Shown one piece after another: positions 1-17,500 of a stretch of DNA of 64,000 nt. This stretch comes from Pseudomonas lini. GTDB taxonomy: Bacteria; Pseudomonadota; Gammaproteobacteria; Pseudomonadales; Pseudomonadaceae. The notes beneath the pieces were generated by a model. That model searched no databases, had not been told where the DNA came from, and worked only from the letters and a program-made list of their open reading frames with translations. Where the stretch lies: positions 6,076,001 to 6,140,000 of the forward strand of contig NZ_OZ061318.1 in the NCBI RefSeq assembly GCF_964063345.1, in the 5' to 3' direction. Numbering within the stretch: the first letter of the stretch is position 1; each line of letters starts with the position of its first letter. The translations under genes and the position numbers were made by a program.

Positions 1-670
1 GCAGGAACGCAAGCTGGGGATGCTCAGGTCGGAGGTGGCTGATCACCGTTCCGCTATTAACAAGACTCGTCTGCAGATCAACGAAACACAGCTGCAGATT
101 CTGCAAATCGACAAGGATTTCAGTACCGAGGTGGTCAAGGAGCTGGCCGAGGTTCAGACCCGAATGTACGACTTGCAAGAGAAAACCTCGTCCCTGGAGG
201 ATCGGCTCAGTCGTATCGTCATCCGCGCGCCCGACGCAGGCATGGTGATTGGCATGACGGTGCACACCATTGGTGGTGTGGTGAGCCCGGCGACGCCGCT
301 GCTGGATATCGTTCCCTCGGTTTCCGAGCTGGTCATAGAGGCCCAGGTCGCGCCGGTGGATATTGATCGTATCGCCATCGGCAAGCGTGCCGACATCCGT
401 TTCGGCGCATTCAATAGTGCGACCACGCCGGTGATCGAAGGCGAGGTCAGCAGTGTCTCGGCGGACCGGCTGACCAACGAAAAGACCGGGACAGCCTATT
501 ACCTTGCGCGGGTGCGGGTAACCGAGGAGGGCGCGCACACCTTGGGTGAGCGCAAATTACTGCCGGGGATGCCCGCGGATGTGTTGATAATCACGGGGCA
601 ACGTACGCTGTTGCAATACCTGATGCAGCCCGCTCGCAATGCCATCGCTCAATCGATGATCGAGGAATGA
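1..670 (+). CDS. Type I secretion membrane fusion protein (HlyD/PrtE family), 5' part outside window
   Basis: This is the C-terminal part of a periplasmic adaptor that links an inner-membrane ABC exporter to a TolC-type outer-membrane channel. The reading frame is open from the first bases, so the start lies upstream of the window. Visible parts in order are an alpha-helical hairpin rich in Glu, Gln and Leu, a lipoyl/barrel-sandwich return segment (IRAPDAGMVIGM, then GGVVSPATPLLDIVP), and a beta-barrel region ending in the LLPGMPADVLI motif typical of HlyD proteins. The stop overlaps the start of the TolC-like gene (ATGA), so the two are translationally coupled. The cognate ABC ATPase is expected just upstream. 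The three large secreted proteins at 3.6-17 kb are the obvious cargo; that link is inferred from proximity. Confidence 0.9.
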   Translation, partial: QERKLGMLRSEVADHRSAINKTRLQINETQLQILQIDKDFSTEVVKELAEVQTRMYDLQEKTSSLEDRLSRIVIRAPDAGMVIGMTVHTIGGVVSPATPLLDIVPSVSELVIEAQVAPVDIDRIAIGKRADIRFGAFNSATTPVIEGEVSSVSADRLTNEKTGTAYYLARVRVTEEGAHTLGERKLLPGMPADVLIITGQRTLLQYLMQPARNAIAQSMIEE

Positions 671-2055
671 TCGTGCGAGTACCTGCAGCGTTGCCCGGTG
701 GTCTGCTCATGCTGGTACTGGGCACCGTTGCCCAGGCGCAAACCACAGCAGCCACGCCGACGGGGGTCAGTGCCTCGACGTTTTCCACCGACCTCATGCA
801 GTTGTACCGTGAGTCACGACTGGAAGATCCGCGGGTATTGGCCTCCTACGCGCAAGCGCAGGCGGGCAAGGAACATCAGCGCGAGGCCTTGGGTGCGCTG
901 TTCCCCCAGGTATCGCTCAACGCCGGGACGAATCGGATTCATCAGGAGAACGACCTGGTGCAGCGCAGTTACGATAGCGAAAACTACAGCCTGGTGCTGC
1001 GTCAGTACCTCTACAACAAGACCGCGTGGGAGAACTACCAGAAATTCAAAAGCCTGGCCAGGCAGTCCGAATCGCAAGCGCTGGACGCCCAGGCCGAGGC
1101 CACGGTGGACTTGGCGCAGCGTTATTTCACCGCGTTGGCGGCCGAAGATGAACTGGAGTTGGTGAGGGCGGAGCGTCGAACCACGCAAAAGAGTCTGGAC
1201 CGAGTCAATGCGTTGTACGAAAAGCAGCTGGCAATGATTACTGATCAGCTCGACCTCAAGGCCCGGGTAGATTTGCTGGCGGCGCAGGAACTGGATGCCC
1301 AGAACCAGGCCAGTATCAGTCGCGAGGCATTGGCAGAGATCGTCGGCCGGCCGGTCAAGGAGAAGCTCAACCGGATTCGCGATGACGTGCAGCTACGGGT
1401 TTCGGCGCAGAGCCTTGAAACCTGGGTCCGCGACGGTATAGCGCTAAACCCGGCGCTCAAGGCCAACGAGAGCGGCGTCGAAGCAGCGGGTGCTGCGTTG
1501 CGCAGCGGCAAGGGCGGGCACTATCCGACCCTGAGTCTGAGCCTGAGCGCACAACAGACCAACGAGGGCTACAACAATACCCTGGCGCCGCGCACCGACA
1601 GCTATGTCGCCGGTATTGGCCTTCAGGTGCCGCTGTACAGCGGCGGCTCGACCTCGGCGCGGGTCCGTGGGCTCTATCAGGATCAGATTACCGCCGAGCA
1701 GGAACTGGAAGCGATCCGGCGCCGGGTGGTCAAGGAGATCACTAGCGCTTACCTGACTGCCAATTCGAGCGGAGAAAAGATCAGTGCGAGCCGAAATGCC
1801 CTGGCCTCGGCACAGCTGTCCAGAGTGGCCGCAGAGAAAGCGCTCAATTACGGAATGGTCAATGCTGTCGATGTACTGACCAGCGTACGCAACGAATTCC
1901 GGGCTCGCCGTGACCTGCTCAAGTCGCAGTACGAGTTCGTCACTAATGTCCTTACCCTCAATCGCTGGGCGGGAAAGCCGCCTGTCGAGGGTGTCGAAAA
2001 CGTTAATGCCTGGTTGAGCCCCGGCAGCTCCAGCCAAAACCTCACATCCCCCTGA
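667..2055 (+). CDS. TolC family outer-membrane channel of a type I secretion system
   Basis: A 462-residue outer-membrane efflux protein that would form the exit duct of the type I secretion system begun by the upstream HlyD gene. The N-terminus is a signal peptide (hydrophobic stretch LPGGLLMLVLGTVAQA followed by QTTAA). The body has the repeated helical organisation of TolC/PrtF proteins, with an RQYLYNKTAWENY segment near residue 110 and a QVPLYSGGSTSARVR segment near residue 320, matching the two structural repeats. Length is typical for the PrtF/AprF group. The start is fixed by the ATGA overlap with the HlyD stop. No peptidase or lipase gene is nearby, which favours the repeat proteins as substrates. 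Confidence 0.92.
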   Translation: MIVRVPAALPGGLLMLVLGTVAQAQTTAATPTGVSASTFSTDLMQLYRESRLEDPRVLASYAQAQAGKEHQREALGALFPQVSLNAGTNRIHQENDLVQRSYDSENYSLVLRQYLYNKTAWENYQKFKSLARQSESQALDAQAEATVDLAQRYFTALAAEDELELVRAERRTTQKSLDRVNALYEKQLAMITDQLDLKARVDLLAAQELDAQNQASISREALAEIVGRPVKEKLNRIRDDVQLRVSAQSLETWVRDGIALNPALKANESGVEAAGAALRSGKGGHYPTLSLSLSAQQTNEGYNNTLAPRTDSYVAGIGLQVPLYSGGSTSARVRGLYQDQITAEQELEAIRRRVVKEITSAYLTANSSGEKISASRNALASAQLSRVAAEKALNYGMVNAVDVLTSVRNEFRARRDLLKSQYEFVTNVLTLNRWAGKPPVEGVENVNAWLSPGSSSQNLTSP

Positions 2056-2779: not shown

Positions 2780-3523
2780 ATGACGACCCACAGAAAGCCA
2801 ATACGCGTGATGCTGATCGATTGTCGCCCCCTCGTTCTCATGGGCCTTCAAGACTTGATCAATGCCAGAAAGCCTCAGATGGAAGTGAGCGGCCAGGCCA
2901 CCACCTATACCCATGCGCTGGATCTTGCCGATCAGTTGCGTCCCAATGTGATTTTTTTCAGTTTCTTTCCGGATGCGCTGAACCCACTGGAGGTCGTTGC
3001 GGGACTCACCCGCAACGCCGAAATGAAAGTGCTGGTGCTCAAGGGCCTGTACGAATCCGTCCCCGTTGCCCAGGCAATTGAGGCGGGCGCACGCGGTATC
3101 GTGCTGGCGGAAGACCCGACGGAATCGATCATCCAGGCCATCATCACGGTCCACCACCGCGACACCGGACAGGATAGGGCCTGGGCCGGTGGGCTTTCCG
3201 GATATGCCGCGACCGGGCATGTACACTTGAAATGCAATCTGGAGCAGGCGAAACAGGCGCGGCTGACGCTGCGCGAGAGGGAACTGATTCGCGCCATTGT
3301 GGGGGATCCGTCCGCCAAGTACATGAGCATCGCGGGGCGCCTGGGTATCAGCGAACACACCGTGCACAACCACCTCAGCAACATTTATCAAAAGCTTAAT
3401 CTGATCAACCGCATCGATTTGCTGATGTATGCGCTGAAGCACGGGCTCACCAACAACGAAAAGCCACCCGAGTCCACATGGGTGGAACTGGATTTGGTTT
3501 CACGTCAAAAAAAGACGTTCTGA
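2780..3523 (+). CDS. LuxR/NarL-family regulator with degenerate receiver domain
   Basis: A 247-residue protein with an N-terminal CheY-like receiver (about residues 8-130) and a C-terminal LuxR helix-turn-helix (about 165-230; TLRERELIRAIVG, then SIAGRLGISEHTVHNHLSNIYQKL). The receiver keeps one acidic-pocket residue (MLIDCRP) but, where the phosphorylated Asp is expected, the strand reads NVIFFSFFP with no Asp. It is therefore probably not controlled by phosphotransfer, and no kinase gene adjoins it. The start is supported by AGGAA seven to eight bases before ATG. It sits between the secretion genes and three secreted repeat-protein genes that share a promoter palindrome, so a role as their regulator is a reasonable inference, not shown. 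Confidence 0.85.
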   Translation: MTTHRKPIRVMLIDCRPLVLMGLQDLINARKPQMEVSGQATTYTHALDLADQLRPNVIFFSFFPDALNPLEVVAGLTRNAEMKVLVLKGLYESVPVAQAIEAGARGIVLAEDPTESIIQAIITVHHRDTGQDRAWAGGLSGYAATGHVHLKCNLEQAKQARLTLRERELIRAIVGDPSAKYMSIAGRLGISEHTVHNHLSNIYQKLNLINRIDLLMYALKHGLTNNEKPPESTWVELDLVSRQKKTF

Positions 3524-3637: not shown

Positions 3638-6600
3638 TCAGACGCTGCCAAAGACAATGTCGCTACTCAGAAGATCGACCCCGACCAAGGTGATGGTCGT
3701 GACTTGTCCCCCCGTTTCGGCAACCGTGACGATGCTGTCTGCACCGCTGATGTCGATCGATTGGACAACCGCGCTCTGGTCGCCGTTGAGCACCAGGGCG
3801 TCTCGCAGGTTTGCGTTCGCGTCGAAGCCGGTGACCTGGTACAGGTTCTCATCGACTGACAAATCGATGTTGAAGGCATCACGCTCACCGCCCGTGCCAA
3901 TCAGGGTGAAGTCGAACTGTGCTCCGGCCAAGTCGTTGGCGAACAGGTTGGCGTCGAACGTACTCGTTGCCGAGTCCCCATCCTTGTCCGTCAGCGTCGC
4001 GTTGAACGTCAGCTGGACATCGCTGGCCAGGCTCTCGGTTTCATGAATGAACTGGATCGTCGGGATCTTGATCTCGCCTCGGGCCATCGTGAGCTGAACA
4101 GCGTCGATCAGGTTCGTGCCATCGCTCTCAATGAGGAAGGATACCTGTCCGCCTGCCTCCGGAGTCAGGGTGTTCACTTCGATGAGGTTCGAGAACGTGC
4201 CATCCTCGTAGTAGGCCCTGTAGTACAGGTCCTCGGTCGCCGTGTTGTAACCCCCTACAGAGTTGTCGATGAAGACCCTCATGCCCGTCAGGAGGCTCTC
4301 CGGATTGACGACGAAGCTTTCATCGGCGGCGCCGATTGCCGCTTGGTTGTCTCCCTGGAACAGGTTATTGGCAACGCCGATGCCGGCCGTGCTGACGTTC
4401 ATGGCCCTCGGGTCGATGTACGAGGGCAGGGGGTTGGTTTGTAGCGTGGTTTCGGTAGGGTCGGGTTCTCCGAGCCCGATGCCGGTCAGAATGGCCGAAG
4501 TCGACGCAAGCGCCTTCGCGGAAAAGAACACAACCTCCTCAGATGGCGAAGGAATAGTCGGCGGATCCTGCTCTGGAATTAACAAGGTGCGCACGGGATC
4601 CGGGCCTCCGGCACCGAGCGCGCCATCGGCAGTGCTGAGCACGATCTCCGAACTGAAGCCTTGCACCAGATCCAGTGCATAGCGGCCATCGGCATAGGCG
4701 GTCAGCGTGTAGTCGACGCTGGTATCCGCGGTTGCGGCGTTGTTGTCGAAGTCGCCGGTCAACGTCCCTGCGAATTGGTACGCGCCATTGCCGTCAGGTG
4801 AGGGCGATTGCTCGGTGAGCGTGGCGGTCCCGGTCGTGGTCGTGTTGTCTGGCCTGACGAGGGTGAACTGGCTATTTACCGAGATATCCAGACCGGCCGC
4901 ACCCAATCCGTCGGCGCCGGCCGAATTATCCCAGAACCCGAATTGCGGCAGGACGCTACCGGTGCCGATCAGGTTGCCGAATGCAAGTGATGGGCCGTCG
5001 TCTTCGAACACCAGGTTCTGACCGATATTGAGGGACGCCTGGGCTCTGTCGCCGTCCTTGTCGGTTACGGTCCCTATCAGCGTCACCAGATTGTCCGCCG
5101 ACAGCGTCGTCGAATCATCGGGATTGGTGGCATCGGGATGCACCACGGCGCGGAGCTGGTCGAGGGTGACGTCACCATTGGCGGCGACGCTGGCCGTGAA
5201 CACCAGCAGGTTGGTGGTGGCCGTGCGGCCTTCCACCACGGTGCCGTTGAGCGACAGGTTGACTGCCTCGCCCGTGGCCGTATCGGTCAGTCCGGAAGCC
5301 CCAACCACCACGCCCAGCGCGTAGGTCACTGTGCCGGCGCCATCCGCGCCAAACGCCGAGCTGAAGTTGGCGGCAAAGTTCTGGGTGGCGTTGGTCGCCA
5401 GTACCGTTTCGTCGACCGTCAGCGTCGGTTCCGTGCCGGTGGTGCTGATGCTTGGCCCGTCGTCCTTGAACACCAGGTTCTGGCCGATGTTGAGCGTCGC
5501 ATGGGCGCTGTCACCGTCCTTGTCGGTGATGGTCGCCGTCAGTGTCACCAGGTTATCTGCCGACAGGCTTGTCGAATCATCGGGATTGGTGGCGTCGGGA
5601 TGCACCACGGCGCGCAGCTGGTCGAGCGTAACGTCACCATTGGCGGCGACGCTGGCGGTGAACACCAGCAGGTTGGTGGTGGCCGTGCGGCCCTCGACCA
5701 CGGTGCCGTTGAGCGACAGATTGACCGCCTCGCCGGTGGCCGTATCGGTCAGTCCGGAAGCCCCAACCACCACGCCCAGCGCGTAGGTCAGCGTACCCGC
5801 GCCATCAGCGCCAAACGCCGAGCTGAAGTTGGCGGTAAAGCTTTGGGTGGCGTTGGTGGCCAGCACTGTTTCGTCGACCGTCAGCGTCGGCTCGATGCCG
5901 GTGGTGCTGATGCTCGGGCCGTCGTCCTCGAACACCAGGTTTTGCCCGATGTTGAGGGTCGCATGGGCGCTGTCACCGTCCTTGTCAGTGATGGTCGCCG
6001 TCAGTGTCACCAGGTTATCTGCCGACAGACTCGTCGAATCATCGGGATTGGTGGCATCGGGATGCACCACGGCGCGCAGTTGGTCGAGCGTAACGTCACC
6101 ATTGGCGGCGACGCTGGCCGTGAACACCAGCAGGCCGGTCGTGGCCGTACGGCCCTCGACCACGGTGCCGTTGAGCGACAGATTGACCGCCTCGCCGGTG
6201 GCGGTGTCGGTCAGTCCGGAAGCCCCAACCACCACGCCCAACGCGTAGGTCAGCGTACCCGCGCCATCAGCGCCAAACGCGGAGCTGAAGTTGGCGGTAA
6301 AGCTTTGGGTGGCGTTGGTGGCCAGCACTGTTTCGTCGACCGTCAGCGTCGGTTCCGTGCCAGTGGTGCTGATGCTCGGGCCGTCGTCCTCGAACACCAG
6401 GTTCTGGCCGATGTTGAGCGTCGCATGGGCGCTGTCACCGTCCTTGTCGGTGATGGTCGCCGTCAGTGTCACCAGGTTATCTGCCGACAGGCTTGTCGAA
6501 TCATCGGGATTGGTGGCGTCGGGATGCACCACGGCGCGCAGCTGGTCGAGGGTGACGTCACCATTGGCGGCGACGCTGGCCGTGAACACCAGCAGGTTGG

Positions 6601-9592
6601 TGGTGGCCGTGCGGCCTTCCACCACGGTGCCGTTGAGCGACAGGTTGACTGCCTCGCCCGTGGCCGTATCGGTCAGTCCGGAAGCCCCAACCACCACGCC
6701 CAGCGCGTAGGTCACTGTGCCGGCGCCATCGGCGCCAAACGCCGAGCTGAAGTTGGCGGTAAAGCTTTGGGTGGCGTCGGTCGTCAGCACCGTTTCGTCC
6801 ACCGTCAGCACAGGCTCGGTGCCGGTGGCGGTGATGCTCGGGCCGTCATCCTTGAACACCAGATTCGCGCCGATGTTGAGGGTCGCCTGGGCGCTGTCAC
6901 CATCCTTGTCGGTGATGGTCGCCGTCAGTGTCACCAGGTTATCTGCCGACAGATTCGTCGAATCATCGGGATTGGTGGCATCGGGATGCACCACGGCGCG
7001 CAGTTGGTCGAGCGTAACGTCACCATTGGCGGCGACGCTGGCGGTGAACACCAGCAGGCCGGTCGTGGCCGTACGGCCCTCGACCACGGTGCCGTTGAGC
7101 GACAGATTGACCGCCTCGCCGGTGGCGGTGTCGGTCAGCCCGGAGGCACCCGCCACCACGCCCAGCGCATAGGTCACTGTGCCGGCGCCATCAGCGCCAA
7201 ACGCCGAGCTGAAGTTGGCGGTAAAGCTTTGGGTGTCGTCGGTCGTCAGCACCGTTTCGTCCACCGTCAGCACAGGCTCGGTGCCGGTGGCGGTGATGCT
7301 CGGGCCGTCATCCTTGAACACCAGATTCGCGCCGATGTTGAGGGTCGCCTGGGCGCTGTCACCATCCTTGTCGGTGATGGTCGCCGTCAGTGTCACCAGG
7401 TTGTCCGCCGACAGACTCGTCGAATCATCGGGATTGGTGGCATCGGGATGCACCACGGCGCGGAGCTGGTCAAGGGTGACGTCGCCATTAGCGGCAACGC
7501 TGGCGGTGAACACCAGCAAGCCGGTCGTGGCCGTGCGGCCTTCGACCACGGTGCCATTGAGCGACAGGTTGACCGCCTCGCCGGTGGCGGTGTCGGTGAG
7601 CCCGGAGGCACCCGCCACCACGCCCAACGCGTAGGTCACTGTGCCGGCGCCATCAGCGCCAAACGCGGAGCTGAAGTTGGCAGCAAAGTTCTGGGTGGCG
7701 TCGGTCGTCAGCACCGTTTCGTCCACTGTCAGCACAGGCTCCTCGCCGGTGTCGGTGATGCTCGGGCCGTCATCCTTGAACACCAGGTTTGCGCCGATGT
7801 TGAGCGTCGCCTGGACGCTGTCGCCGTCGCCATCGGTTGTGGTCGCCGTCAGTGTCACCAGGTTGTCTGAGGTCAAGCTCGTCGAGTCATCGGGATTGGT
7901 GGCATCGGGATGCACCACCGCCCGCAGCTGATCGAGCGTGACGTCGCCATTGGCGGCGACGCTAACCGTGAACACCAGCAGCCCGGTCGTGGCCGTGCGG
8001 CCTTCGACCACGGTGCCATTGAGCGACAAGTTGACCGCCTCACCGGTGGCCGTGTCGGTCAGCCCGGAGGCACCCGCCACCACGCCCAGCGCATAGGTCA
8101 ACGTACCTGGGCCATCCGCACCAAACGCCGAGTTGAAGTTGGCGGCAAAGTTCTGGGTGGCGTTGGTGGCCAGCACCGTTTCGTCCACCGTCAGCGTCGG
8201 CTCCTCACCGGTGGCGCTGATGCTCGGCCCATCGTCTTCGAATACCATCTTGGAGCCGATTTCGGCGATCGAGGTAGAAGCCTTGGACAGCGTGAAGCCG
8301 CCGATATCAAAATCGGCGTGGTCATTGCCCCTGGCGTCGAGAGCTGCCCCGTTCTCGATGAGCACGCGGTTGTGGTTCGACGTTGTGGTGTATTCAATCT
8401 GGTAACCGGCCAACACGCCGGTGATGGTTGCAACCCCGGCAGCAGAAAAGCTGATGCTGATGGTCGGATCATTCACTGTTCCGTCTGAATTCTCGATCAC
8501 CAGCCCGGTGCTATTGTTGATGACGCGAACATTGGTGATGGCAACCGGCGTATCGTTCGCATAGCCGTTAATGAAATTCGCGCCAGGTTCAGCCGCGGTG
8601 CTGAATGCGCTGATTTTTACCACGGCACTCTTGCCGCTTTGCAACTGCACGACGTCGAAATTGGCCGAGGTCGAATTGTAGACGCTGGTAAAGTCGATGT
8701 TGGACTCAACATCGGCTTCGGTCTGACTCAGGTTGGGAACGGTCACATCCTGCCTGGCGCCCGTGACGAACGAAAAGCGGATGCCTTCCTGTTCCACAAT
8801 CATCTGATTGTTGGTGCCGATGGTGGTCGGGCCACCCCCCTGACTGGTATTGATCGTGTCGCCAGTGTTGATATTGGCGCCACTTGACTGGTCTGCGGGG
8901 TCCTTGCCAGTGGCGATAATGGTGGGATCCGTGATCCGCACGACGCCATTGACGGTTTCAGTTGTCGGGTTTGCTTTCGTGAACATCAGGAACAGGTTCT
9001 GACCGGAAGGCGCACCGGCCAGACTGAATTCCAGGTCCTGAGTGGCTCCGATGAACACCTTATCCAGCAGGTTGAGCGAATCATCGGGGTTCGTCATATC
9101 TGGATGCTTGAGCGGTTGGTATTCCACGGTCCAGATCTTGCCGCCGGTGACCGGTGATCCGGTTTCTTCAATGTAGGCAGCGAACACGATCGCGCCATTT
9201 GCGCCCCCGGCTCGGCCCACAAGGATGTTGTTGTTCGTGTCCGTATAGAGAAGGATGCTGGTGCCATCAAGGGTGTCCAGTCCGCTGTCCACGCCATTGA
9301 GGGGCGCGCCAGCGCTGTCGACGAAGCGGATATCGGTAATGCTTCCTCCGCCGGTGAAGCTGAACGCATTGGTGCCCGTGTTGCCCGCGGCACCGGTATA
9401 GCCACTCAAGGCCGCACCCGTTGCGGTACCGGCTCCAAGTGCGGTCAAACGGGTAGAGAAGGAAGAGGGCAGGGATGCCACCAGAATGTCGTTGTCGTCA
9501 GCGTCTCCTGCAGGGGTTGGCGTGGCGGTGGCGTTCTGTAACCCGGCCGTCTCGTCCAGCACAACGTCCTCGCCGGTGATTGCAATAGCCAT
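3638..9592 (-). CDS. Giant type I secreted repeat protein with seven DUF5801-like repeats (paralogue 1)
   Basis: A 1984-residue acidic, Cys-poor extracellular protein. Residues about 1-453 form an N-terminal module shared with the next two genes (VVLDETxGLQNATATP near the start; a VRVINxSTGLVIE segment later). Seven tandem repeats of about 154 residues follow (about 454-1533). Each opens with GPSI, carries LTVDETVL and AVVHPDATNPDDS, and ends in TDKDGDSAxATLNIG. This matches my memory of the DUF5801/T1SS-143 type of RTX-adhesin repeat. A C-terminal module (about 1534-1984) shared with paralogue 2 ends in ITLVGVDLLSSDIVFGSV, which would hold the uncleaved secretion signal. I see no classical GGxGxD nonapeptides and no LapA-type retention module, so the protein is probably released or surface-associated rather than LapD/G-controlled. 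ATG at 9592 was chosen because all paralogues align there and GGGAG lies seven to eight bases upstream; an upstream TTG is unlikely. Confidence 0.88.
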   Translation of the reverse strand: MAIAITGEDVVLDETAGLQNATATPTPAGDADDNDILVASLPSSFSTRLTALGAGTATGAALSGYTGAAGNTGTNAFSFTGGGSITDIRFVDSAGAPLNGVDSGLDTLDGTSILLYTDTNNNILVGRAGGANGAIVFAAYIEETGSPVTGGKIWTVEYQPLKHPDMTNPDDSLNLLDKVFIGATQDLEFSLAGAPSGQNLFLMFTKANPTTETVNGVVRITDPTIIATGKDPADQSSGANINTGDTINTSQGGGPTTIGTNNQMIVEQEGIRFSFVTGARQDVTVPNLSQTEADVESNIDFTSVYNSTSANFDVVQLQSGKSAVVKISAFSTAAEPGANFINGYANDTPVAITNVRVINNSTGLVIENSDGTVNDPTISISFSAAGVATITGVLAGYQIEYTTTSNHNRVLIENGAALDARGNDHADFDIGGFTLSKASTSIAEIGSKMVFEDDGPSISATGEEPTLTVDETVLATNATQNFAANFNSAFGADGPGTLTYALGVVAGASGLTDTATGEAVNLSLNGTVVEGRTATTGLLVFTVSVAANGDVTLDQLRAVVHPDATNPDDSTSLTSDNLVTLTATTTDGDGDSVQATLNIGANLVFKDDGPSITDTGEEPVLTVDETVLTTDATQNFAANFSSAFGADGAGTVTYALGVVAGASGLTDTATGEAVNLSLNGTVVEGRTATTGLLVFTASVAANGDVTLDQLRAVVHPDATNPDDSTSLSADNLVTLTATITDKDGDSAQATLNIGANLVFKDDGPSITATGTEPVLTVDETVLTTDDTQSFTANFSSAFGADGAGTVTYALGVVAGASGLTDTATGEAVNLSLNGTVVEGRTATTGLLVFTASVAANGDVTLDQLRAVVHPDATNPDDSTNLSADNLVTLTATITDKDGDSAQATLNIGANLVFKDDGPSITATGTEPVLTVDETVLTTDATQSFTANFSSAFGADGAGTVTYALGVVVGASGLTDTATGEAVNLSLNGTVVEGRTATTNLLVFTASVAANGDVTLDQLRAVVHPDATNPDDSTSLSADNLVTLTATITDKDGDSAHATLNIGQNLVFEDDGPSISTTGTEPTLTVDETVLATNATQSFTANFSSAFGADGAGTLTYALGVVVGASGLTDTATGEAVNLSLNGTVVEGRTATTGLLVFTASVAANGDVTLDQLRAVVHPDATNPDDSTSLSADNLVTLTATITDKDGDSAHATLNIGQNLVFEDDGPSISTTGIEPTLTVDETVLATNATQSFTANFSSAFGADGAGTLTYALGVVVGASGLTDTATGEAVNLSLNGTVVEGRTATTNLLVFTASVAANGDVTLDQLRAVVHPDATNPDDSTSLSADNLVTLTATITDKDGDSAHATLNIGQNLVFKDDGPSISTTGTEPTLTVDETVLATNATQNFAANFSSAFGADGAGTVTYALGVVVGASGLTDTATGEAVNLSLNGTVVEGRTATTNLLVFTASVAANGDVTLDQLRAVVHPDATNPDDSTTLSADNLVTLIGTVTDKDGDRAQASLNIGQNLVFEDDGPSLAFGNLIGTGSVLPQFGFWDNSAGADGLGAAGLDISVNSQFTLVRPDNTTTTGTATLTEQSPSPDGNGAYQFAGTLTGDFDNNAATADTSVDYTLTAYADGRYALDLVQGFSSEIVLSTADGALGAGGPDPVRTLLIPEQDPPTIPSPSEEVVFFSAKALASTSAILTGIGLGEPDPTETTLQTNPLPSYIDPRAMNVSTAGIGVANNLFQGDNQAAIGAADESFVVNPESLLTGMRVFIDNSVGGYNTATEDLYYRAYYEDGTFSNLIEVNTLTPEAGGQVSFLIESDGTNLIDAVQLTMARGEIKIPTIQFIHETESLASDVQLTFNATLTDKDGDSATSTFDANLFANDLAGAQFDFTLIGTGGERDAFNIDLSVDENLYQVTGFDANANLRDALVLNGDQSAVVQSIDISGADSIVTVAETGGQVTTITLVGVDLLSSDIVFGSV
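4990..8231 (-). repeat. Seven in-frame tandem repeats of about 462 bp within the giant secreted protein gene
   Basis: The coding repeats are close to identical at DNA level; long blocks such as those at 5940-6300 and 6400-6760 recur almost unchanged. Seven copies of about 462 bases fit the 3.24 kb. Variation sits mainly at the copy junctions (ATNATQ/TTDATQ; QNLVFED/ANLVFKD), suggesting homogenisation by recombination. Short-read assembly could easily miscount copies here. Confidence 0.9.
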
Positions 9593-9613
9593 GATTTTTC
9601 TCCCAAGCAATTG

Positions 9614-9633
9614 CGGTCATCAATGCCTGACCA
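9614..9633 (-). promoter_or_regulatory. Conserved 5'-UTR hairpin before repeat-protein gene 1
   Basis: On the minus strand TGGTCA and TGACCG flank an eight-base loop, ending about 21 bases before the ATG. The same stem with an eight-base loop occurs before both other paralogues at nearly the same distance, although the loop bases differ. Confidence 0.55.
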
Positions 9634-9681
9634 TTGACCTACAACTATGAATAAAGCGCCGCAGGTTGCACATTGGCCGAT

Positions 9682-9702
9682 ACTCCCAAGCGGTATGGGA
9701 GT
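9682..9702. promoter_or_regulatory. Palindromic operator ACTCCCA-N7-TGGGAGT upstream of repeat-protein gene 1
   Basis: Perfect 7-base inverted arms with a 7-base spacer, 89 bases before the ATG. A conserved CATAGT (minus strand, 9644-9649) about 32 bases downstream of the palindrome could be the -10 box, which would centre the palindrome near -55, an activator-like position. The element recurs before the two other paralogues. Confidence 0.75.
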
Positions 9703-9791
9703 TTCGGCCTAGTCGTCTTCATCGGTGGTCTGCCGCAGGGGGGGCAGGGGGATGCGAGCGTGCGGATCGCCTATTGGAGCTGCAAAAAACA

Positions 9792-9821
9792 ATGCGAGGG
9801 TGGCTTGCGCCATCCTCGCAT
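9792..9821. terminator. Terminator of repeat-protein gene 2
   Basis: ATGCGAGGGTGG pairs with CCATCCTCGCAT (one G-T wobble) around a six-base loop. On the minus strand it is followed by GTTTTTTG. It lies 20 bases after the gene's stop and is a near-copy of the terminator at 3592-3621, as expected for duplicated genes. Confidence 0.85.
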
Positions 9822-9840
9822 TTTTCACGCGCGCGACGCC

Positions 9841-12558
9841 TCAGACGCTGCCAATAACGATGTCGCTAGTCACAAGATCGACCCCGACCAAGGTGATGGT
9901 CGTGACTTGTCCGCCCGTTTCGGTAACCGTCACGATGCTGTCTGCGCCGCTGGTGTCGATCTGGACAGCGGCGTTCTGGTCGCCGTTGAGTACCAAGGTG
10001 TCTCGCAGGTTTGCGTCCGCATCGAAGCCGGTGACCTGGTACAGGTTCTCATCGAATGACAAGTCGACGTTGAAGGCATCACGCTCACCGCCCGTACCCA
10101 CCAGCGTGTAGTCGAAGGCGCCAACCAAGTCGTTGGCGAACAGGTTGGCGTCAAACGTACTTGATGCCGAGTCCCCATCGCTGTCCGTCACCGTCGCGTT
10201 GAACGTCAGCTGAATATCGCTGGCCAGGCTCTCGGTCTCCTGAATGAACTGGATCACCGGGATCTTGATGTCGCCTCGGCCCATCGTGAGCTGAACAGCG
10301 TCGATCAGCAGCGAGCCCTCCTGTTCAATGAGGAAGGACACCTGTCCACGGGGCTCTGGCGTCAGGGTATTCACCTCGATGAGATTCGACGTCGTGCCGT
10401 CCTCGTAGTAGATCCTGTAGTACAGGTCCTCGGTCGCTGTGTTGTAACCCGCTACAGAGTTGTCGATGAAGACCTTCATGGCCGTCACCAGGCTCTCCGG
10501 ATTGACGACGAAACTTTCATCGGTAGCGCCGATTGCCACCAGGTTGTCTCCCTGAAGAACGTTATTGGCGACGCCGATGCCGGACGTGCTGACGTTCATG
10601 GCCCTCGGGTCGATGTACGAGGGCAGGGGGTTGGTCTGTAGCTGGGCTTCGGTGGGGTCGGATGCTCCAAGCCCGATACCGGTCAGGATGTCCGAAGTCG
10701 ACGCAAGCGCCTTCGCGGAAAAGAACACAACCTCCTCGGATGCCGAAGGAATAGTCGGGTCATTCGTCTTCGGAATTAACAAGGTGCGCACGGGGTCCGG
10801 ACCACCGGCATTGAGCGCGCCATCGGCAGTGCTGAGCACGACCGTCGAACTGAAGCCTTGCACCAGATCCAGTGTATAGCTGCCATTGGCATAGGCGGTC
10901 AGCGTGTAGTCGACGTCGGTATCCGCCGTTGCGGCGTTGTTGTCGAAATCGCCGGTCAATGTCCCTGCAAATTGATACGCGCCATTGCCGTCCGGTGAGG
11001 GCGACTGCTCGAGGAGCGTGCCGGTCCCGGTGGTGGTCGTGTTGTCTGGCCTGACGAGGGTGAACTGGTTATTCAGCAACGAGATATCCAGACCGTTGGT
11101 ATCCAGCCCGTCGGCGCCGGCCGAATGACTCCAGAATCCAGTTTGCGGCAGGACACTACCGGTCCCGATCAGGTTGCCGAAGGCGAGTGCTGGGCCGTCG
11201 TCTTCGAAGATGATCTTGGAGCCGATTTCGGCGGTCGTAACAGCGGTTTGGAGCAGGGTGAAACCACCGATATCAAAATCGGCGTGGGTATTGCCCCTGG
11301 CGTCGAGGGCCGCTCCGTTCTCGACGAGCACGCGGTTGTGATCCTCCGTTGTGGTGTATTCAATCCGGTAACCGGCTTTAACGCCGGTGATGGTGGCAAC
11401 CCCGTCAGCATCAAAGGTGATCGCAATGGCCGGATCATCCTCCGGTCCGTCTGAACTCTCGATCACCAGCCCGGTGCTGATGTTGATGACGCGGACACTG
11501 GTGATCTCAACCGGCGAATCATTTGCATAGCCGTCGATGAAGGTCGTACCCGATTCAGCAGCGGTGCTGAATGCGCTGATTTTTACGACAGCACTCTTGC
11601 CGCTTTGCAACTGCACGACGTCGAAACTGGCCTTATTCGCATTGACGACGTCGGTAAAGTCGATGTTGGCTTCAACATCGGCTTCGTTCTGATCCAGGTT
11701 GGGAATGGTCACATCCTGCCTGGCACCGGTGACGAACGAATAACGAATGCCCTCCTGTTCGGTAATCATCTGGCTGTTGGTGCCGAAGGTGGTCGGGCCA
11801 CCCGCCTGGCTGGTATTGATCGTGTCGCCAGTGTTTATATTGACGCCGGTTGACTGGTTTGCGGGGTCCTTGCCGGTCGCGATGATGGTGGGATCGGTGA
11901 TCCGCACGACACCGTTGACAGTTTCAGTTGCCGGGTCCGCCGTCGTGAACATCAGGAACAGGTTCTGACCGGAGGGTGCATTGGCCAGACTGAATTCCAG
12001 GTCCTGACTGGTTCCGACGAATACCTTATCCAGCAGATTGAGCGAATCATCAGGGTTAGTACCATCTGGATGCTTGAGCGGTTGATACTCCACGGTCCAT
12101 ATCTTGCCGCCGCTGACCGGTGATCCGGTTTCTTCGATATAGGCGGCGAACACGATCGCGCCATCTGCGGCCTCGGCGCGGCCCAGAAGGATGTTGTTGT
12201 TCGTATCGGTATAGAGAAGGATGCTGGTGCCATCGAGGGTAAACAGTCCGCTGTCCGCGCCATCAAGCGGTGCGCCAGCAATGTCGACGAAGCTGATATC
12301 GGTAATGGTTGCTCCGTCGGTGACGGTGAACGCCTCACTGCCCGTGTCGCCCACGGCACCGGTATAGCCACTCAAGGCCGCATTCGTTGCGGTGCCTGCC
12401 GCAAGTGCGGTCAAACGGTCAGAAAAGGGCAAGGGCAGGGACGCCACCAGAATGTCGTTGTCGTCAGCATCTCCCGCAGGGGTTGGTGTGGCGGTGGCGT
12501 TCTGCAAGCCGGGCGTTTCGTCCAGCACAACGTCCTCGCCGGTGATTTCAATAGCCAT
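9841..12558 (-). CDS. Type I secreted protein without internal repeats (paralogue 2)
   Basis: A 905-residue acidic protein that looks like paralogue 1 with the seven DUF5801-like repeats removed. The N-terminal module (about 1-450) runs directly into the shared C-terminal module through FEDDGPALAFGNLIGTGS, where paralogue 1 has FEDDGPS followed by its repeat array. The C-terminus ends in ITLVGVDLVTSDIVIGSV, the presumed type I secretion signal. No signal peptide and no RTX nonapeptides are visible. ATG at 12558 was chosen from paralogue alignment and a GGAG seven to eight bases upstream; the frame stays open further upstream but without a good ribosome site. It has its own palindrome and terminator, so it is probably monocistronic. 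Confidence 0.87.
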   Translation of the reverse strand: MAIEITGEDVVLDETPGLQNATATPTPAGDADDNDILVASLPLPFSDRLTALAAGTATNAALSGYTGAVGDTGSEAFTVTDGATITDISFVDIAGAPLDGADSGLFTLDGTSILLYTDTNNNILLGRAEAADGAIVFAAYIEETGSPVSGGKIWTVEYQPLKHPDGTNPDDSLNLLDKVFVGTSQDLEFSLANAPSGQNLFLMFTTADPATETVNGVVRITDPTIIATGKDPANQSTGVNINTGDTINTSQAGGPTTFGTNSQMITEQEGIRYSFVTGARQDVTIPNLDQNEADVEANIDFTDVVNANKASFDVVQLQSGKSAVVKISAFSTAAESGTTFIDGYANDSPVEITSVRVINISTGLVIESSDGPEDDPAIAITFDADGVATITGVKAGYRIEYTTTEDHNRVLVENGAALDARGNTHADFDIGGFTLLQTAVTTAEIGSKIIFEDDGPALAFGNLIGTGSVLPQTGFWSHSAGADGLDTNGLDISLLNNQFTLVRPDNTTTTGTGTLLEQSPSPDGNGAYQFAGTLTGDFDNNAATADTDVDYTLTAYANGSYTLDLVQGFSSTVVLSTADGALNAGGPDPVRTLLIPKTNDPTIPSASEEVVFFSAKALASTSDILTGIGLGASDPTEAQLQTNPLPSYIDPRAMNVSTSGIGVANNVLQGDNLVAIGATDESFVVNPESLVTAMKVFIDNSVAGYNTATEDLYYRIYYEDGTTSNLIEVNTLTPEPRGQVSFLIEQEGSLLIDAVQLTMGRGDIKIPVIQFIQETESLASDIQLTFNATVTDSDGDSASSTFDANLFANDLVGAFDYTLVGTGGERDAFNVDLSFDENLYQVTGFDADANLRDTLVLNGDQNAAVQIDTSGADSIVTVTETGGQVTTITLVGVDLVTSDIVIGSV

Positions 12559-12574
12559 GATTTTCTCCAGCGTG

Positions 12575-12594
12575 CGGTCATCGAGGTCTGACCG
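12575..12594 (-). promoter_or_regulatory. Conserved 5'-UTR hairpin before repeat-protein gene 2
   Basis: Stem CGGTCA/TGACCG with an eight-base loop (minus-strand loop GACCTCGA), ending 16 bases before the start codon. Counterpart of the hairpins at 9614-9633 and 17022-17041. Confidence 0.55.
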
Positions 12595-12647
12595 TTGACC
12601 TTGGGTCGTCACTATGGATAAGCACCGGGGATTGCGCATCGGCCGAT

Positions 12648-12668
12648 ACTCCCAAGCGGGGTGGGAGT
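12648..12668. promoter_or_regulatory. Palindromic operator ACTCCCA-N7-TGGGAGT upstream of paralogue 2
   Basis: Perfect arms, 89 bases before the ATG, the same distance as for paralogue 1. The conserved minus-strand CATAGT lies at 12611-12616. No good -35 hexamer is visible between them, consistent with activator dependence. Confidence 0.75.
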
Positions 12669-12790
12669 TTCAGCCTACTTGGATGGGGGAACAGCACGAG
12701 GGCGTTAAGAAACGGTGCCGCCTATTCCGTTTGTGAATGAGGACATGCCGCAAGGCTCGTCTGGCCTTGGCTCAGGGACCGCAGTGGCCC

Positions 12791-12829
12791 CAAAAAAAAC
12801 GGCCTGGCCCCTTGTGGGAGCCAGGCCGT
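12791..12829 (-). terminator. Terminator of repeat-protein gene 3
   Basis: Perfect 10-base stem ACGGCCTGGC/GCCAGGCCGT with an 11-base loop. On the minus strand it is followed directly by eight T, a strong rho-independent terminator just after the stop of the third paralogue. Confidence 0.92.
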
Positions 12830-12861
12830 CCTGTCTCGCGCGTGTACCTCTTCTTAGCGGG

Positions 12862-15800
12862 TCAAAGCACCAAATCTGTCGGTGCCAAGTTAGTTACTCC
12901 TACCAGTTCGATCACAGGATTTTCGATATCAATCGTCTGAACAGCGGTGAAATCGCTATCTCTATCGACGACCTTGAAATCCAGCGTTAGATCAAGGGTA
13001 GCGGGTGTAGTCGTGGTGGTGGAGAAACCAGCATCGATGATCTTCAGCGGATTCGTACTCGTATCCTCCGCAATCGTGTTTCCAGGCCCGACGAGACCAC
13101 TGACCGGCTGTGCGGAAGTGCTGCTTCCTCCATCGGCACCGACACCGCGATTCAGATTTATCGCGCTGCCCGTAAGGCCAGCGTCATTCGAAAGAATCTG
13201 AATACCCTTGATGAGCCAGTTATCACCGATCTGGGTGTTGAAGTCATTGCTTTCAACAATCAATAGAGCATCATTATTGTCCAGGAACGGGTCGTTCGGA
13301 TCGGCAGGGTCGTTGGCGATAAGGGCCTCGTACTTGGTTCCAACAAGATCGGCGTTGTTTGTATCGTTCTCGTACACATCGCCTTGGTCGACGTAGATGG
13401 CACGTGTTGTAGTCGTGCCGGGATTATTTGCATCAGCAAGACTGACTATAAGCACAAGATCATCGCTTTCAGTCTCGTATCCATCGAACTTGATAAAGAA
13501 ATCGGTCGCGTAACTAAAATCGTCGGCGCCCAGATCTCCTTTCGGATCAGTCTGGAAGAAATTGATGTTGGCCGCTTCACCTGCCTGGATCGTGTTTCCG
13601 GAGACGCCCAGAGCAGTGCTGGACAAGGTTACAGCGGCAACCGTGCCGCTCACGAGCTCACCCGCCACCACGGCAGTATTGCCGCCGGCACTCAGTGGTG
13701 CCTCGAAGCCCGTGATCTGGATGAAGAAACCTTCCCCAAGCTTCCCAGTGGCCACAGGTGATGGGCCACTGGAAGGGCTCGTGCCATCCATGTCATACGT
13801 TTCGTATCCAGTGCCTTCGCCCAGCGTGACGTCTTGCGTCGTTTGCAGCGGATCCATCGCGAAGGTATAGGTGTCATTGACCTTGTCAAATACCAGCGTG
13901 CCTTCCACCAGTTCAGGATCGGTGCCAGGACTCCGATCGTGATCGTATTTGAACGACACGTTAAACGTGGCACTGTCGAGATTCTCTGAAGCCCAGGTGA
14001 CCGTTGGATCAACGATCGCAACATTGTTCGCCGAACCAGAGAGGGCGAGGTTGGCAAAATCACTGTCCGCTGCCGAAGAGTAGATCGGCCCGCGCTTGTC
14101 CGCACCTATCGAGTAGGCGAAGTCACCCGTAAAGGTCCATGACGTCGCACCCAAATCGGGATCGACATCCTGCACAGGGGCTGTCCCTATAACGGGTGTA
14201 TCGTCGTCGACGGTGATGACCAGTCTGTCGGCCGCGGCCGTCACCGTGTCGCCGTCCTTGTCGGTGGCCTGCAGCAGCGTGCCCAGGTTGATGGTGATGT
14301 CGTTCTCGTCGTTGCCAGCCGCGTGATCCAGCTGTTTGAGCAGCGTGAAGCTGTACACACCCGCTGTGGTGAGGCTGAAGGTGAACACGTCGGCACCGCC
14401 TACGCCAGCCTTGGCGGTGAGCGTGTTACCTGCGACGCTGTACACCAGCGCCACCCCGGCCGAGCTCAGCGCCGGCAAGCCGCTGGTGACACTCGACAAG
14501 GCATAGCTCAGCGGCGTGTCGGCGCCGGACTGGAAGATGCCGGTCACGCTGCCGCTGGCCGTGGTCGCCACGCCAGCCACATCGCCCGTACCACCGGCGT
14601 TGCCATTGGCCAGGCCATCCTCGTCGACGGTTCCCGTTACGGCGGTCCCGGTTGCCGTCGGCGTGTCGTCGTCGACGATGATGACCAGTTTTTCGGCCGC
14701 AGCCGTCACCGTGTCGCCGTCCTTGTCGGTGGCCCGCAGTAGCGAGCCCAGGTTGATGGTGATGTCGTTCTCGTCGTTGCCTGCCGCGTGATCCAGCGGC
14801 TTGAGCAGCGTGAAGCTGTAGGCACCCGCTGCGGTGAGACTGAACGTGAATACGTCGGCACCGCCTACGCCGGCCTTGGCGGTGAGCGTATCGCCCGCGA
14901 CGCTGTACACCAGCGCCACCCCGCCCGAGCTCAGCGCCTGCAAGCCGCTGGTGTCAGTCGACAAGGCATAGCTCAGCGGCGTGTCGGCGCCGGACTGGAA
15001 GATGCCGGTCACGCTGCCGCTGGCCGTGGTCGCCACGCCAGCCACGTCACCCACACCACCGGCAATGCCATTGGTCAGGCCGTCCTCGTCGACGGTTCCC
15101 GTCACGGCGGTTCCGGTCGCCGTCGGCGTGTCGTCGTCGACGGTGATAACCAGTTTTTCGGCCGCAGCCGTCACCGTGTCACCGTCTTTGTCGGTGGCCC
15201 GCAGTAGTGAGCCCAGGTTGATGGTGATGTCGTTCTCGTTGTTGCCTGCCGCGTGATCCAGCGGCTTGAGCAGCGTGAAGGTGTAGGCACCCGCTGCGGT
15301 GAGGCTGAACGTGAACACGTCGGCACCGCCTGCGCCGGCCTTGGCGGTGAGCGTGTTGCCCACGACGCTGTACACCAGCGCCACTCCGCCCGAACTCAGC
15401 GCTGGCAACCCGGTGGTATCACTCGACAAGGCATAGCTCAGCGGCGTGTCGACGCCGGACTGGAAGATGCCGGTCACGCTGCCACTGGCCGTGGTCGCCT
15501 CGCCAGCCACGTCGCCCGTACCGCCGGGAATACCATTGGCCAGGCCATCTTCGTCGACGGTTCCCGCCACGGCGGTCCCGGTCGCCGCCGGCCCGTCGTC
15601 TTCGAAGATCATCTGGGAACCGATTTCGGCTTTCGTAATAGAGGCTTGGAACAGGTGGAGGCCATCGATATCAAAATCGGCGTGCTCATTGCCCTTGGCG
15701 GTGAGGGCCGCCCCGTTTTCGATGAGCACGCGGTTGTGATCCGCCGTTGTGGTGTATTCGATCGCGTAGCCGGCCTTAATGCCGGTGATGGTTGCAACCC

Positions 15801-17001
15801 CATTAACAAAGGTGATGCCAATGGCCGGATCATTCTCCGGTCCGGCTGAATTCTCCAGCACCGTCCCGGTGCTGCTGAGGACGCGAACACTGACGATGTC
15901 AACCTTCGTATCATTCGCATAGCCGTCGATGAATTGCGTGCCAGATTCAACAGCGGTGGTGAATGCGCTGATTTTTACGACAGCGCTCTTGCCGCTTTGC
16001 AACTGCACAACGTCGAAACTGACCGTCTTCACATTGACCACGCCGGTGTAGTCGATGTTGGATTCAAGATCGGCTTCGTTCTGATCCAGGTTGGGAATGG
16101 TCACATTCTGCCTGGCACCCGTGACGAACGAAAAACGGATGCCTTCCTGTTCCGTAATCATCTGGTTGTTGGTGCCGAAGGTGGTCGGCCCACCCGCCTG
16201 GCTGGTATTGATCGTGTCGCCGGTCGTTATATTGATGTCGTCGGCTGTGCTGTTGGGGTCAAGCCCGGACTGATTCGCCGGTAACTTGCCGGTGGCGATG
16301 ATGGCGGGATCGGTGATCCGCACGACACCATTGACCGTTTCAGTTGCCGGGTTCAATTTCGTGAACATCAGGAAGAGGTTCTGACCGGAGGGCGCACCGG
16401 CCAGACTGAATTCCAGGTTCTGACTGGCTCCGATGAAAACCTTACCCGTCAGATCGACCGAGTCATCGGGGTTCGTCGTACCTGGATGCTTGAGTGGTTG
16501 GTACTCCACGGTCCAGATCTTGCCGCCTGTGACCGTTTCTTCAATATAGGCAGCGAACACGATCGCGCCGGTTGCGCCCCCGGCTCGGCCCAGAACGATG
16601 TTGTTGTTCGTATCCGTATAGAGAAGGATGCTAGTGCCATCGAGGGTATCCAGTCCGCTGTCCAGACCATTGAGCGGTGCGCCAGTGCTGTCGACGAAGC
16701 TGATATCGGTACCGCTTGTTCCGCCGCTGATGGTGAACGCATCGCTGCCCGCGTTGCCCACGGCACCGGTATAGCCACTCAAGGCCGCACCCGTTGCAGT
16801 GCCTGCCCCAAGGGCGGTCAAACGGGTAGAGAAGGCCGAGGGCAGGGGTGTCGCCGTGTCGTTGTCGTCAGCGTCTCCTGCAGGGATTGGAGTGGCTGTG
16901 GCGTTCTGCAACCCGGTCGTTTCGTCCAGCGTAACGTCCACGCCGGTCGCCACGACGCTCAAAGCGCTGGCCGTAATCGATGAATTTTGCTCAATAGTCA
17001 T
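12862..17001 (-). CDS. Type I secreted repeat protein with three T1SS-143-like repeats (paralogue 3)
   Basis: A 1379-residue acidic protein. It shares the roughly 465-residue N-terminal module with paralogues 1 and 2, then has three tandem repeats of about 155 residues (about 468-934) of a different type: TGTVDEDGLxNG at the start, SGSVTGIFQSGADTPLSYAL in the middle, DKDGDTVTAAAEKLVI at the end. The C-terminal 440 residues are unlike the other two and end in VELVGVTNLAPTDLVL-type sequence (VIELVGVTNLAPTDLVL), a hydrophobic tail suited to type I export. No signal peptide or RTX nonapeptide is seen. ATG at 17001 has AGGA upstream and matches the paralogues. Likely an adhesin or matrix protein exported by the system at the left edge; both points are inference. 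Confidence 0.87.
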   Translation of the reverse strand: MTIEQNSSITASALSVVATGVDVTLDETTGLQNATATPIPAGDADDNDTATPLPSAFSTRLTALGAGTATGAALSGYTGAVGNAGSDAFTISGGTSGTDISFVDSTGAPLNGLDSGLDTLDGTSILLYTDTNNNIVLGRAGGATGAIVFAAYIEETVTGGKIWTVEYQPLKHPGTTNPDDSVDLTGKVFIGASQNLEFSLAGAPSGQNLFLMFTKLNPATETVNGVVRITDPAIIATGKLPANQSGLDPNSTADDINITTGDTINTSQAGGPTTFGTNNQMITEQEGIRFSFVTGARQNVTIPNLDQNEADLESNIDYTGVVNVKTVSFDVVQLQSGKSAVVKISAFTTAVESGTQFIDGYANDTKVDIVSVRVLSSTGTVLENSAGPENDPAIGITFVNGVATITGIKAGYAIEYTTTADHNRVLIENGAALTAKGNEHADFDIDGLHLFQASITKAEIGSQMIFEDDGPAATGTAVAGTVDEDGLANGIPGGTGDVAGEATTASGSVTGIFQSGVDTPLSYALSSDTTGLPALSSGGVALVYSVVGNTLTAKAGAGGADVFTFSLTAAGAYTFTLLKPLDHAAGNNENDITINLGSLLRATDKDGDTVTAAAEKLVITVDDDTPTATGTAVTGTVDEDGLTNGIAGGVGDVAGVATTASGSVTGIFQSGADTPLSYALSTDTSGLQALSSGGVALVYSVAGDTLTAKAGVGGADVFTFSLTAAGAYSFTLLKPLDHAAGNDENDITINLGSLLRATDKDGDTVTAAAEKLVIIVDDDTPTATGTAVTGTVDEDGLANGNAGGTGDVAGVATTASGSVTGIFQSGADTPLSYALSSVTSGLPALSSAGVALVYSVAGNTLTAKAGVGGADVFTFSLTTAGVYSFTLLKQLDHAAGNDENDITINLGTLLQATDKDGDTVTAAADRLVITVDDDTPVIGTAPVQDVDPDLGATSWTFTGDFAYSIGADKRGPIYSSAADSDFANLALSGSANNVAIVDPTVTWASENLDSATFNVSFKYDHDRSPGTDPELVEGTLVFDKVNDTYTFAMDPLQTTQDVTLGEGTGYETYDMDGTSPSSGPSPVATGKLGEGFFIQITGFEAPLSAGGNTAVVAGELVSGTVAAVTLSSTALGVSGNTIQAGEAANINFFQTDPKGDLGADDFSYATDFFIKFDGYETESDDLVLIVSLADANNPGTTTTRAIYVDQGDVYENDTNNADLVGTKYEALIANDPADPNDPFLDNNDALLIVESNDFNTQIGDNWLIKGIQILSNDAGLTGSAINLNRGVGADGGSSTSAQPVSGLVGPGNTIAEDTSTNPLKIIDAGFSTTTTTPATLDLTLDFKVVDRDSDFTAVQTIDIENPVIELVGVTNLAPTDLVL
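14200..15596 (-). repeat. Three tandem repeats of about 465 bp in paralogue 3
   Basis: Three nearly identical in-frame copies, each ending in the codons for VDDDTP and starting with those for ATGTAV. They are unrelated to the 462-bp repeats of paralogue 1, so similar N-terminal modules carry different repeat cassettes. Confidence 0.9.
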
Positions 17002-17021
17002 GACTTTTTCCTGGGCAGTTG

Positions 17022-17041
17022 CGGTCATCTAGGCCTGACCG
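17022..17041 (-). promoter_or_regulatory. Conserved 5'-UTR hairpin before repeat-protein gene 3
   Basis: Stem CGGTCA/TGACCG with loop GGCCTAGA on the minus strand, ending 20 bases before the start codon. Third copy of the shared leader hairpin. Confidence 0.55.
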
Positions 17042-17093
17042 TTGACCTTTGGTCGCACTATGGATAAACGCCGGGGATTGCGCATCGACCGAT

Positions 17094-17114
17094 ACTCCCA
17101 AGTGGGGTGGGAGT
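17094..17114. promoter_or_regulatory. Palindromic operator ACTCCCA-N7-TGGGAGT upstream of paralogue 3
   Basis: Perfect arms with spacer AGTGGGG, 92 bases before the ATG. The conserved CATAGT (minus strand) is at 17057-17062, the same spacing as in the other two promoters. The remaining intergenic DNA to 17386 holds nothing I recognise. Confidence 0.75.
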
Positions 17115-17386
17115 TTCAGACTACTTGGGAGGGGGAGATGGAACGGCGCGAAGGAGGGAGTGTCATATTCCGTTTGTAAATTGTGCAGGCCTGAGATAAA
17201 TCCCAACAAGCGGTCAACGAACAGGCGCGTATAGCTCTGTAACCGTCCCTGGCGGAGCAGTCTTCTCGCGTTTAACGATGCGTGTTTAAAGACACTCCGT
17301 GTTACTTCCCGAAGGGCTACAAGACCTTGCGTCGTTACCTACGGTTAAGACAGAATCCGCCGGCTTGTGCGCCGATGGGCCGGGCT

Positions 17387-17500
17387 CTATCGTTTCCCCT
17401 GTCGCTGAATAACAGCGATCGGGTTTGGTAGACCCTCAGCATCGACGCATAGCGTCACCTTCAGCGGTCCGTTCTTAGGGCTGCGTTTTATGGTGGCCAT
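17387..17500 (-). CDS. 37-residue small basic protein, unrecognised
   Basis: The frame starts MATIKRSPKNGPLKVTL and ends in IAVIQRQGKR. It has a strong Shine-Dalgarno AAGGAG eight bases before ATG. That site lies inside a small stem (GCTCC-CGAA-GGAGC), so initiation could be structure-controlled. The frame stays open for about 30 codons upstream of the ATG without a start codon. It faces away from the DUF6124-like gene. I believe similar sequence recurs in front of such genes in pseudomonads but cannot check it here. Function unknown. Confidence 0.45.
   Translation of the reverse strand: MATIKRSPKNGPLKVTLCVDAEGLPNPIAVIQRQGKR

Follow-up and report, generated by a model that had tools for sequence, protein, structure and literature searches.

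A putative 39-bp operator of a LuxR/NarL-type regulator upstream of DDxP-type secreted repeat-protein genes in Pseudomonas

Introduction

The operator of NarL, as set out in parts of an account of the E. coli ogt and yeaR promoters (PMC7419079), consists of inverted 7-bp elements lying 2 bp apart, and the same parts describe activation by NarL from such 7-2-7 sites, one of which has its centre at -44.5 and adjoins the -35 element. Among regulators linked to secreted proteins, the VpsT protein of Vibrio is stated in a portion of PMC6890996 to affect large adhesins that leave the cell by type I secretion. The DDxP proteins of Pseudomonas are characterised, in sections of PMC7730722, by modules ending in DDxP, by the adjacency of their genes and by the occurrence of some members without repeats; the main text of that paper contains neither the word promoter nor the word LuxR.

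The locus that is compared here with these systems lies in a window, that is, the whole stretch of 64,000 nucleotides that was analysed (Pseudomonas lini, contig NZ_OZ061318.1, forward-strand positions 6,076,001 to 6,140,000; coordinates below are those of the window unless a locus is named). A first-pass annotation of this DNA had proposed that three genes for secreted repeat proteins share a palindromic operator and form one regulon with a dedicated activator, the nearest candidate being a LuxR-type protein encoded at 2780-3523.

Results

The three genes are adjacent and lie on the minus strand. Gene 1 (3638..9592) encodes a repeat protein of 1984 aa with matches to PF19116 and TIGR03660 (T1SS-143) and eight DDGP motifs; gene 2 (9841..12558) encodes a protein of 905 aa with a PF19116 match of 34.3 bits (cut-off 27), only one DDGP motif and no NCBIfam match, the N-terminus of which resembles that of the gene 1 product; gene 3 (12862..17001) encodes a repeat protein of 1379 aa with a TIGR03660 match and four DDxP motifs. 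The DDxP motifs thus number 8, 1 and 4 in genes 1, 2 and 3, DUF5801 is matched by the products of genes 1 and 2, and the T1SS-143 repeat by those of genes 1 and 3. The genes are paralogs with similar 5' coding regions, and for this reason the sites in front of them are not three independent events; independent evidence comes from other species. Judged by the group II criteria (DDxP modules, adjacent paralogs and a repeat-poor member), the predicted substrates fit the DDxP proteins of Pseudomonas, gene 2 being what would be the repeat-poor member. Gene adjacency further predicts a putative type I secretion of the three products by the neighbouring ABC/HlyD/TolC system, of which the window holds, on the plus strand, the TolC-type outer membrane component (667..2055; PF02321, TIGR01844) and the end only of the HlyD-type adaptor gene (1..670; TIGR01843); this gene and the PrtD-type ABC gene (TIGR01842) start before the window, and both were assigned on L106, the locus of the source genome.

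Exact matches to ACTCCCA-N7-TGGGAGT are located on the minus strand at 9682..9702, 12648..12668 and 17094..17114, where the first-pass annotation had placed them, and the distances of 89, 89 and 92 bases that it gave from the palindrome to the start codon (first base at 9592, 12558 and 17001 respectively) are likewise correct. A scatter of the motif over random sites had been named as grounds against the proposal; in the 6.58-Mb genome there are three exact copies, all of them before the three genes, copies with one mismatch are absent and those with two number 12, while the reversed control pattern gives no exact match and 19 places at two mismatches or fewer. The exact palindrome is specific to the three-gene cluster within this genome, and a chance origin of the three copies is ruled out by the genome-wide count. 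The rarity of the site lies in its exactness and not in the number of approximate matches within the window, where finding four places that differ from the motif by no more than three bases is unremarkable, given that 22 of 100 shuffles reach four. In 298 genomes of the same genus, the reversed control of this short pattern has one exact match, in a single genome. The spacing of the half-sites was compared over 47 loci, comprising 46 loci with a gene for the LuxR-type protein, drawn from 45 named Pseudomonas genomes (L059-L104), and one chance match (L105): a spacing of 7 gave 23 exact palindromes and 6 with one mismatch, and spacings of 5, 6, 8 and 9 gave neither exact nor one-mismatch palindromes.

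The palindrome is also present in orthologous promoters of related genomes, and the proposal of a single regulon is supported there as in the window. All three window sites precede genes of the DDxP/T1SS-143 type, as do 71 of 74 distinct sites in relatives, a set that leaves aside G407 and the sites of the family-wide genome set described below. Behind these 71 sites the N-terminal motif of the substrates is found within 1.6 kb downstream, in 64 cases by the strict pattern, which was sought in any reading frame over that distance, and in seven as a visible variant; of the other three sites, one is undecided since the sequence ends at 1.5 kb (L011) and two are remnants.

The exact 7-7-7 palindrome described in the first-pass annotation is real, but it is only the core of a longer dyad of 39 bp. 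Conservation beyond the 7-7-7 unit is seen in a profile of 36 distinct sites, and the symmetric conserved positions over 74 promoters give the form TAGnCnGAaACTCCCA-nnCnGnn-TGGGAGTaTCnGnCnA, which occupies 9673..9711, 12639..12677 and 17085..17123 (minus strand) upstream of genes 1, 2 and 3. Outside the left half stand the bases T, G, C, G and A, each matched by its complement beyond the right half in 72 to 74 of the 74 promoters, and an inner C-G pair is kept in 59; some of the intervening positions are asymmetric, and an A opposite a G, two bases from the outer edge, is so in nearly every promoter. The site is so constant across genomes that no variation is left for an analysis of protein-DNA co-variation.

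Downstream of the dyad, the candidate -10 box CATAGT lies at 9644..9649 (gene 1), 12611..12616 (gene 2) and 17057..17062 (gene 3), again on the minus strand, and follows the palindrome by 32, 31 and 31 bp, close to the earlier estimate of about 32. This spacing is fixed over all 74 distinct promoters (31 bp in 61 and 32 bp in 13), the box reading CATAGT in 72 and CACAGT in two. The observation that no -35 box is visible is borne out by a sigma-70 scan of 9500-17300, in which none of the three genes received a two-hexamer promoter; the hexamers 17 bp upstream of the -10 box are TGTGCA for gene 1 and ATGCGC for both gene 2 and gene 3. The leader after the -10 box is variable: of the 73 leaders extracted, 71 measure between 53 and 74 nt, and in the other two too early an ATG was taken. 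A further dyad, CGGTCA-N8-TGACCG, occurs downstream of the -10 box and ahead of the start codon in the leaders of genes 2 and 3 and at many loci of close relatives, and is lost or altered in distant relatives; as a conserved leader hairpin it was rejected, the consensus fold of the 73 leaders being empty. A C4 antisense RNA (RF01695, 77 bits) is matched on the plus strand at 17486-17569, upstream of the operator of gene 3 at a distance of about 370 bases.

The LuxR/NarL-type protein proposed as activator is encoded on the plus strand at 2780..3523. It carries a GerE domain at its C-terminus (PF00196, 45.6 bits, cut-off 23.5) and, at its N-terminus, a receiver-like fold that scores 22.2 bits against PF00072, under the cut-off of 30.2; its full-length sequence matches include VraR and NarL. 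The receiver is degenerate: at the positions taken from a NarL alignment, all of the 34 orthologs that were aligned (of 46 found) are without the phosphorylation residues, with D-C at the acidic pair, S at the phospho-acceptor Asp, K at the T/S switch and A at the Lys. No Pfam match to the autoinducer-binding domain that marks acyl-homoserine-lactone LuxR regulators was obtained at E 0.001. The motif W[FLM][TS]R, which is the c-di-GMP motif of VpsT-type regulators, occurs in none of the 34 orthologs. Over the same 34 sequences the GerE domain is 91% conserved as against 86% for the receiver, and the highest value, 97%, falls on the stretch 190-206. A structure model of moderate confidence (mean pLDDT 72.8) finds matches for the receiver and gives full-length superpositions of high rmsd, and adds little beyond the fold. 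In the source genome (L106) the dyad site is absent from the transporter operon and from the LuxR gene itself. A sister LuxR-type protein with 35% identity and a similar recognition helix is encoded at 7765-8430 (minus strand) of L109, beside DUF5666 and uncharacterised genes; it was considered as a related system and set aside, given that its Pfam-tested neighbours are not secretion genes and that the stretch is without the operator.

The choice of this protein as the dedicated regulator is strengthened by the distribution of the site, which is nearly confined to genomes that carry the LuxR gene. In the 298 genomes of the same genus, the extended site (three mismatches or fewer) is present in 23 of 23 genomes with a close LuxR ortholog (E below 1e-115) and in two of 275 without one, an association with a Fisher p of 2e-32 in which kinship is ignored. 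The two exceptions, G183 and G057, have only fragments of substrate genes beside the site. With the exact palindrome alone, 16 of 19 carrier genomes have a LuxR ortholog, the other three being G032, G052 and G183; the extended motif and a substrate match are absent within 10 kb in G032 and G052, where the palindrome looks like a chance match, and G183 is a remnant. Among the 45 named LuxR-encoding Pseudomonas genomes the extended site is found in 44. The exception is P. boanensis, in which the LuxR frame ceases to match the family partway through the DNA-binding domain (L100, 9950-10700, and L185), no site is found in the genome, and neither substrate nor transporter is found within 20 kb around the LuxR gene. 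Alongside an intact LuxR gene, Pseudomonas sp. Irchel s3h14 has a truncated second copy (L102, 827-1264). Across 198 family-wide genomes, the LuxR gene is present in 22 and the site in 20, all of these within the 22, with none in the 176 others. Of the two genomes that have LuxR but give no match to the pattern, one has a LuxR gene broken in the DNA-binding domain; the other, G407, encodes a LuxR protein of 56% identity and, when read by eye, has an exact palindrome before a substrate gene with TATAGT 32 bp further on. The reversed control of the extended pattern has no match in the 45-, 298- or 198-genome sets, which overlap in part.

Comparison of 32 loci separates what stays with the site from what does not. 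The LuxR gene is present in 32 of 32 (called directly in 23 and found under a longer reverse-strand frame in nine) and the substrate family in 31, the lone exception being P. jessenii, which has a site and a substrate elsewhere in its genome. Genes for ABC, HlyD and TolC components lie near the LuxR gene in 17 and are absent from 11 of the 28 loci in which the sequence upstream of LuxR extends for 7.6 kb or more, a count that leaves out L107, L108, L115 and L184 (less than 2 kb upstream), and no gene other than LuxR, substrates and transporter occurs in more than six of the 32. Of the 23 LuxR carriers, all of which have the site, 13 have an ABC gene at least 85% identical to that of the source genome and 10 do not, four candidates having been scored per genome and the identity in G108 being taken over 485 residues; in G204 an ABC gene of 83% identity occurs with neither LuxR nor site. 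In addition, the site-bearing substrate need not be near the regulator gene. In G108, a single contig, a second substrate with a site lies 1.16 Mb from the LuxR gene, and in the draft G306 no LuxR match is present for about 10 kb around a site-bearing substrate gene in the interior of a contig (L148), two further site-bearing genes being close to contig ends. What remains constant is the pairing of LuxR with the site, and the transporter varies independently. Plain co-inheritance of a gene cluster would yield co-occurrence as well, but is weakened as an explanation by the varying transporter and the unlinked substrate. A second, diverged type I secretion operon, with an ABC protein 51% identical, was seen at 3943-8300 (minus strand) of L147 beside an operator-bearing substrate gene.

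Discussion

Taken as a whole, the sequence comparisons make it quite probable that the 39-bp dyad is the operator of the LuxR/NarL-type protein encoded at 2780-3523 and that this protein activates only genes of the DDxP type. The protein would bind the dyad in dimeric form; since 39 bp, with 14 bp between half-site centres, is long for one GerE dimer, the binding of two dimers is a plausible guess. Relative to the transcription start expected from the -10 box, the palindrome would be centred near -54 and the dyad would end at about -35, and the bound protein would replace the missing -35 element and recruit sigma-70 RNA polymerase to each DDxP-type gene. We infer activation through contact with the polymerase, the sign of regulation resting on position: the absence of a -35 box together with a dyad fixed just upstream fits activation. 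Given that the receiver is without phosphorylation residues, a histidine-kinase switch probably plays no part, and activity may instead be set by the amount of the protein, a ligand or a partner. The regulon would consist of the substrate genes alone, also where these are distant from the regulator gene. The full combination, in which a kinase-independent activator acts as two dimers on the 39-bp dyad and has one expanding family of secreted repeat proteins as its whole regulon, is possible and is put forward tentatively; if it is true, each new gene copy, even a distant one in the chromosome, brings its own operator and joins the regulon at once, and the secretion machinery is exchangeable.

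Given that the dyad extends to about -35, where a bound protein could block polymerase, it may be asked whether the LuxR-type protein, once bound to the dyad, acts as a repressor, basal transcription then requiring either a different factor or none. This is unlikely for two reasons: a promoter with no recognisable -35 would be weak in its basal state, and the genomes that have the site and no LuxR ortholog (G183 and G057) keep substrate fragments and not intact genes. Co-occurrence by itself cannot name the binding protein, and the half-site spacing is unlike that of NarL, which leaves room for another, unlinked regulator that reads the dyad while LuxR merely travels with the cluster. Such a general regulator should have other targets, yet the sites precede one family almost throughout, and no other gene stays with the site; this reading is accordingly also quite unlikely.

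The remaining explanations dispense with an operator altogether. That the identity of the three dyads is a functionless leftover of recent gene duplication would be in keeping with the paralogous genes and their similar 5' coding regions, but is highly improbable, given that 32 of the 39 dyad columns are identical in the window promoters as against 17 of 89 alignment columns upstream, that over 36 sites the constant dyad positions reach 2 bits whereas 14 of 16 flank positions from -25 to -10 are below 1 bit, and that the core is kept where the regulator is only 56% identical. The palindrome could in principle form an RNA hairpin in the leader, with a 7-bp stem and a 7-nt loop; however, it lies upstream of the conserved -10 box, and its departures from symmetry are one-sided (the outermost pair is T-T in 11 and another pair is C-A in four of the 74 promoters) with no compensating change, which fits protein-DNA contacts and not an RNA stem, and such a hairpin is scarcely credible. 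Tyrosine recombinase core sites have inverted arms around a spacer, and the dyad, with its inverted arms and 7-bp asymmetric centre, resembles these in shape, as would be required of a recombinase site that shuffles the substrate genes. Nevertheless, no gene beyond LuxR, substrates and transporter recurs in more than six of the 32 loci, and the fixed distance to the -10 box and the near absence of the site without LuxR fit a promoter element, making this the least probable of the explanations.

An operator read by the LuxR-type protein would provide a specific, testable regulator for a large and little studied family of secreted Pseudomonas proteins, and the three promoters offer a clean promoter for reporter work. 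It would also represent a second operator geometry for GerE-domain proteins with a degenerate receiver, and an operator copied along with each gene suggests how a regulon stays limited to one gene family. To our knowledge, no GerE protein is known with a 39-bp dyad of such form, and no description of the operator, the regulator or their link is found in open-licence papers, among the matches listed.

When set beside described systems, the locus resembles LapA/MapA of P. fluorescens, as portrayed in parts of PMC7716237, in that large repeat proteins are encoded next to genes for type I secretion, and within the same groups of species, a likeness by description; in contrast, those parts mention no such LuxR-operator unit, the word LuxR occurring once in the text. 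The adjacent genes, DDxP modules and repeat-poor members are shared with the Pseudomonas group II of DDxP proteins, as far as the relevant sections of Di Nocera and De Gregorio 2020 (PMC7730722) define it. Like the VpsT/CsgD biofilm regulators described in a portion of PMC6890996, the regulator is of LuxR type and is linked to matrix or adhesin genes; unlike VpsT, it is without the W[FLM][TS]R motif in every aligned ortholog (34 of 34), and its match to VpsT covers the DNA-binding domain only. In architecture the regulator resembles NarL, also a receiver and GerE protein with inverted 7-bp elements next to the -35 region and, according to parts of PMC7419079, an activator of promoters. Instead of the 7-2-7 arrangement of NarL, however, the two 7-bp elements are 7 bp apart here within a 39-bp dyad, the receiver is without phosphorylation residues, and the regulon appears to be confined to one gene family. 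The substrates are already described, and what appears to be new, as far as the open-licence papers listed show, is a putative LuxR/NarL-type activator whose operator is unusual and whose regulon would consist of a single family.
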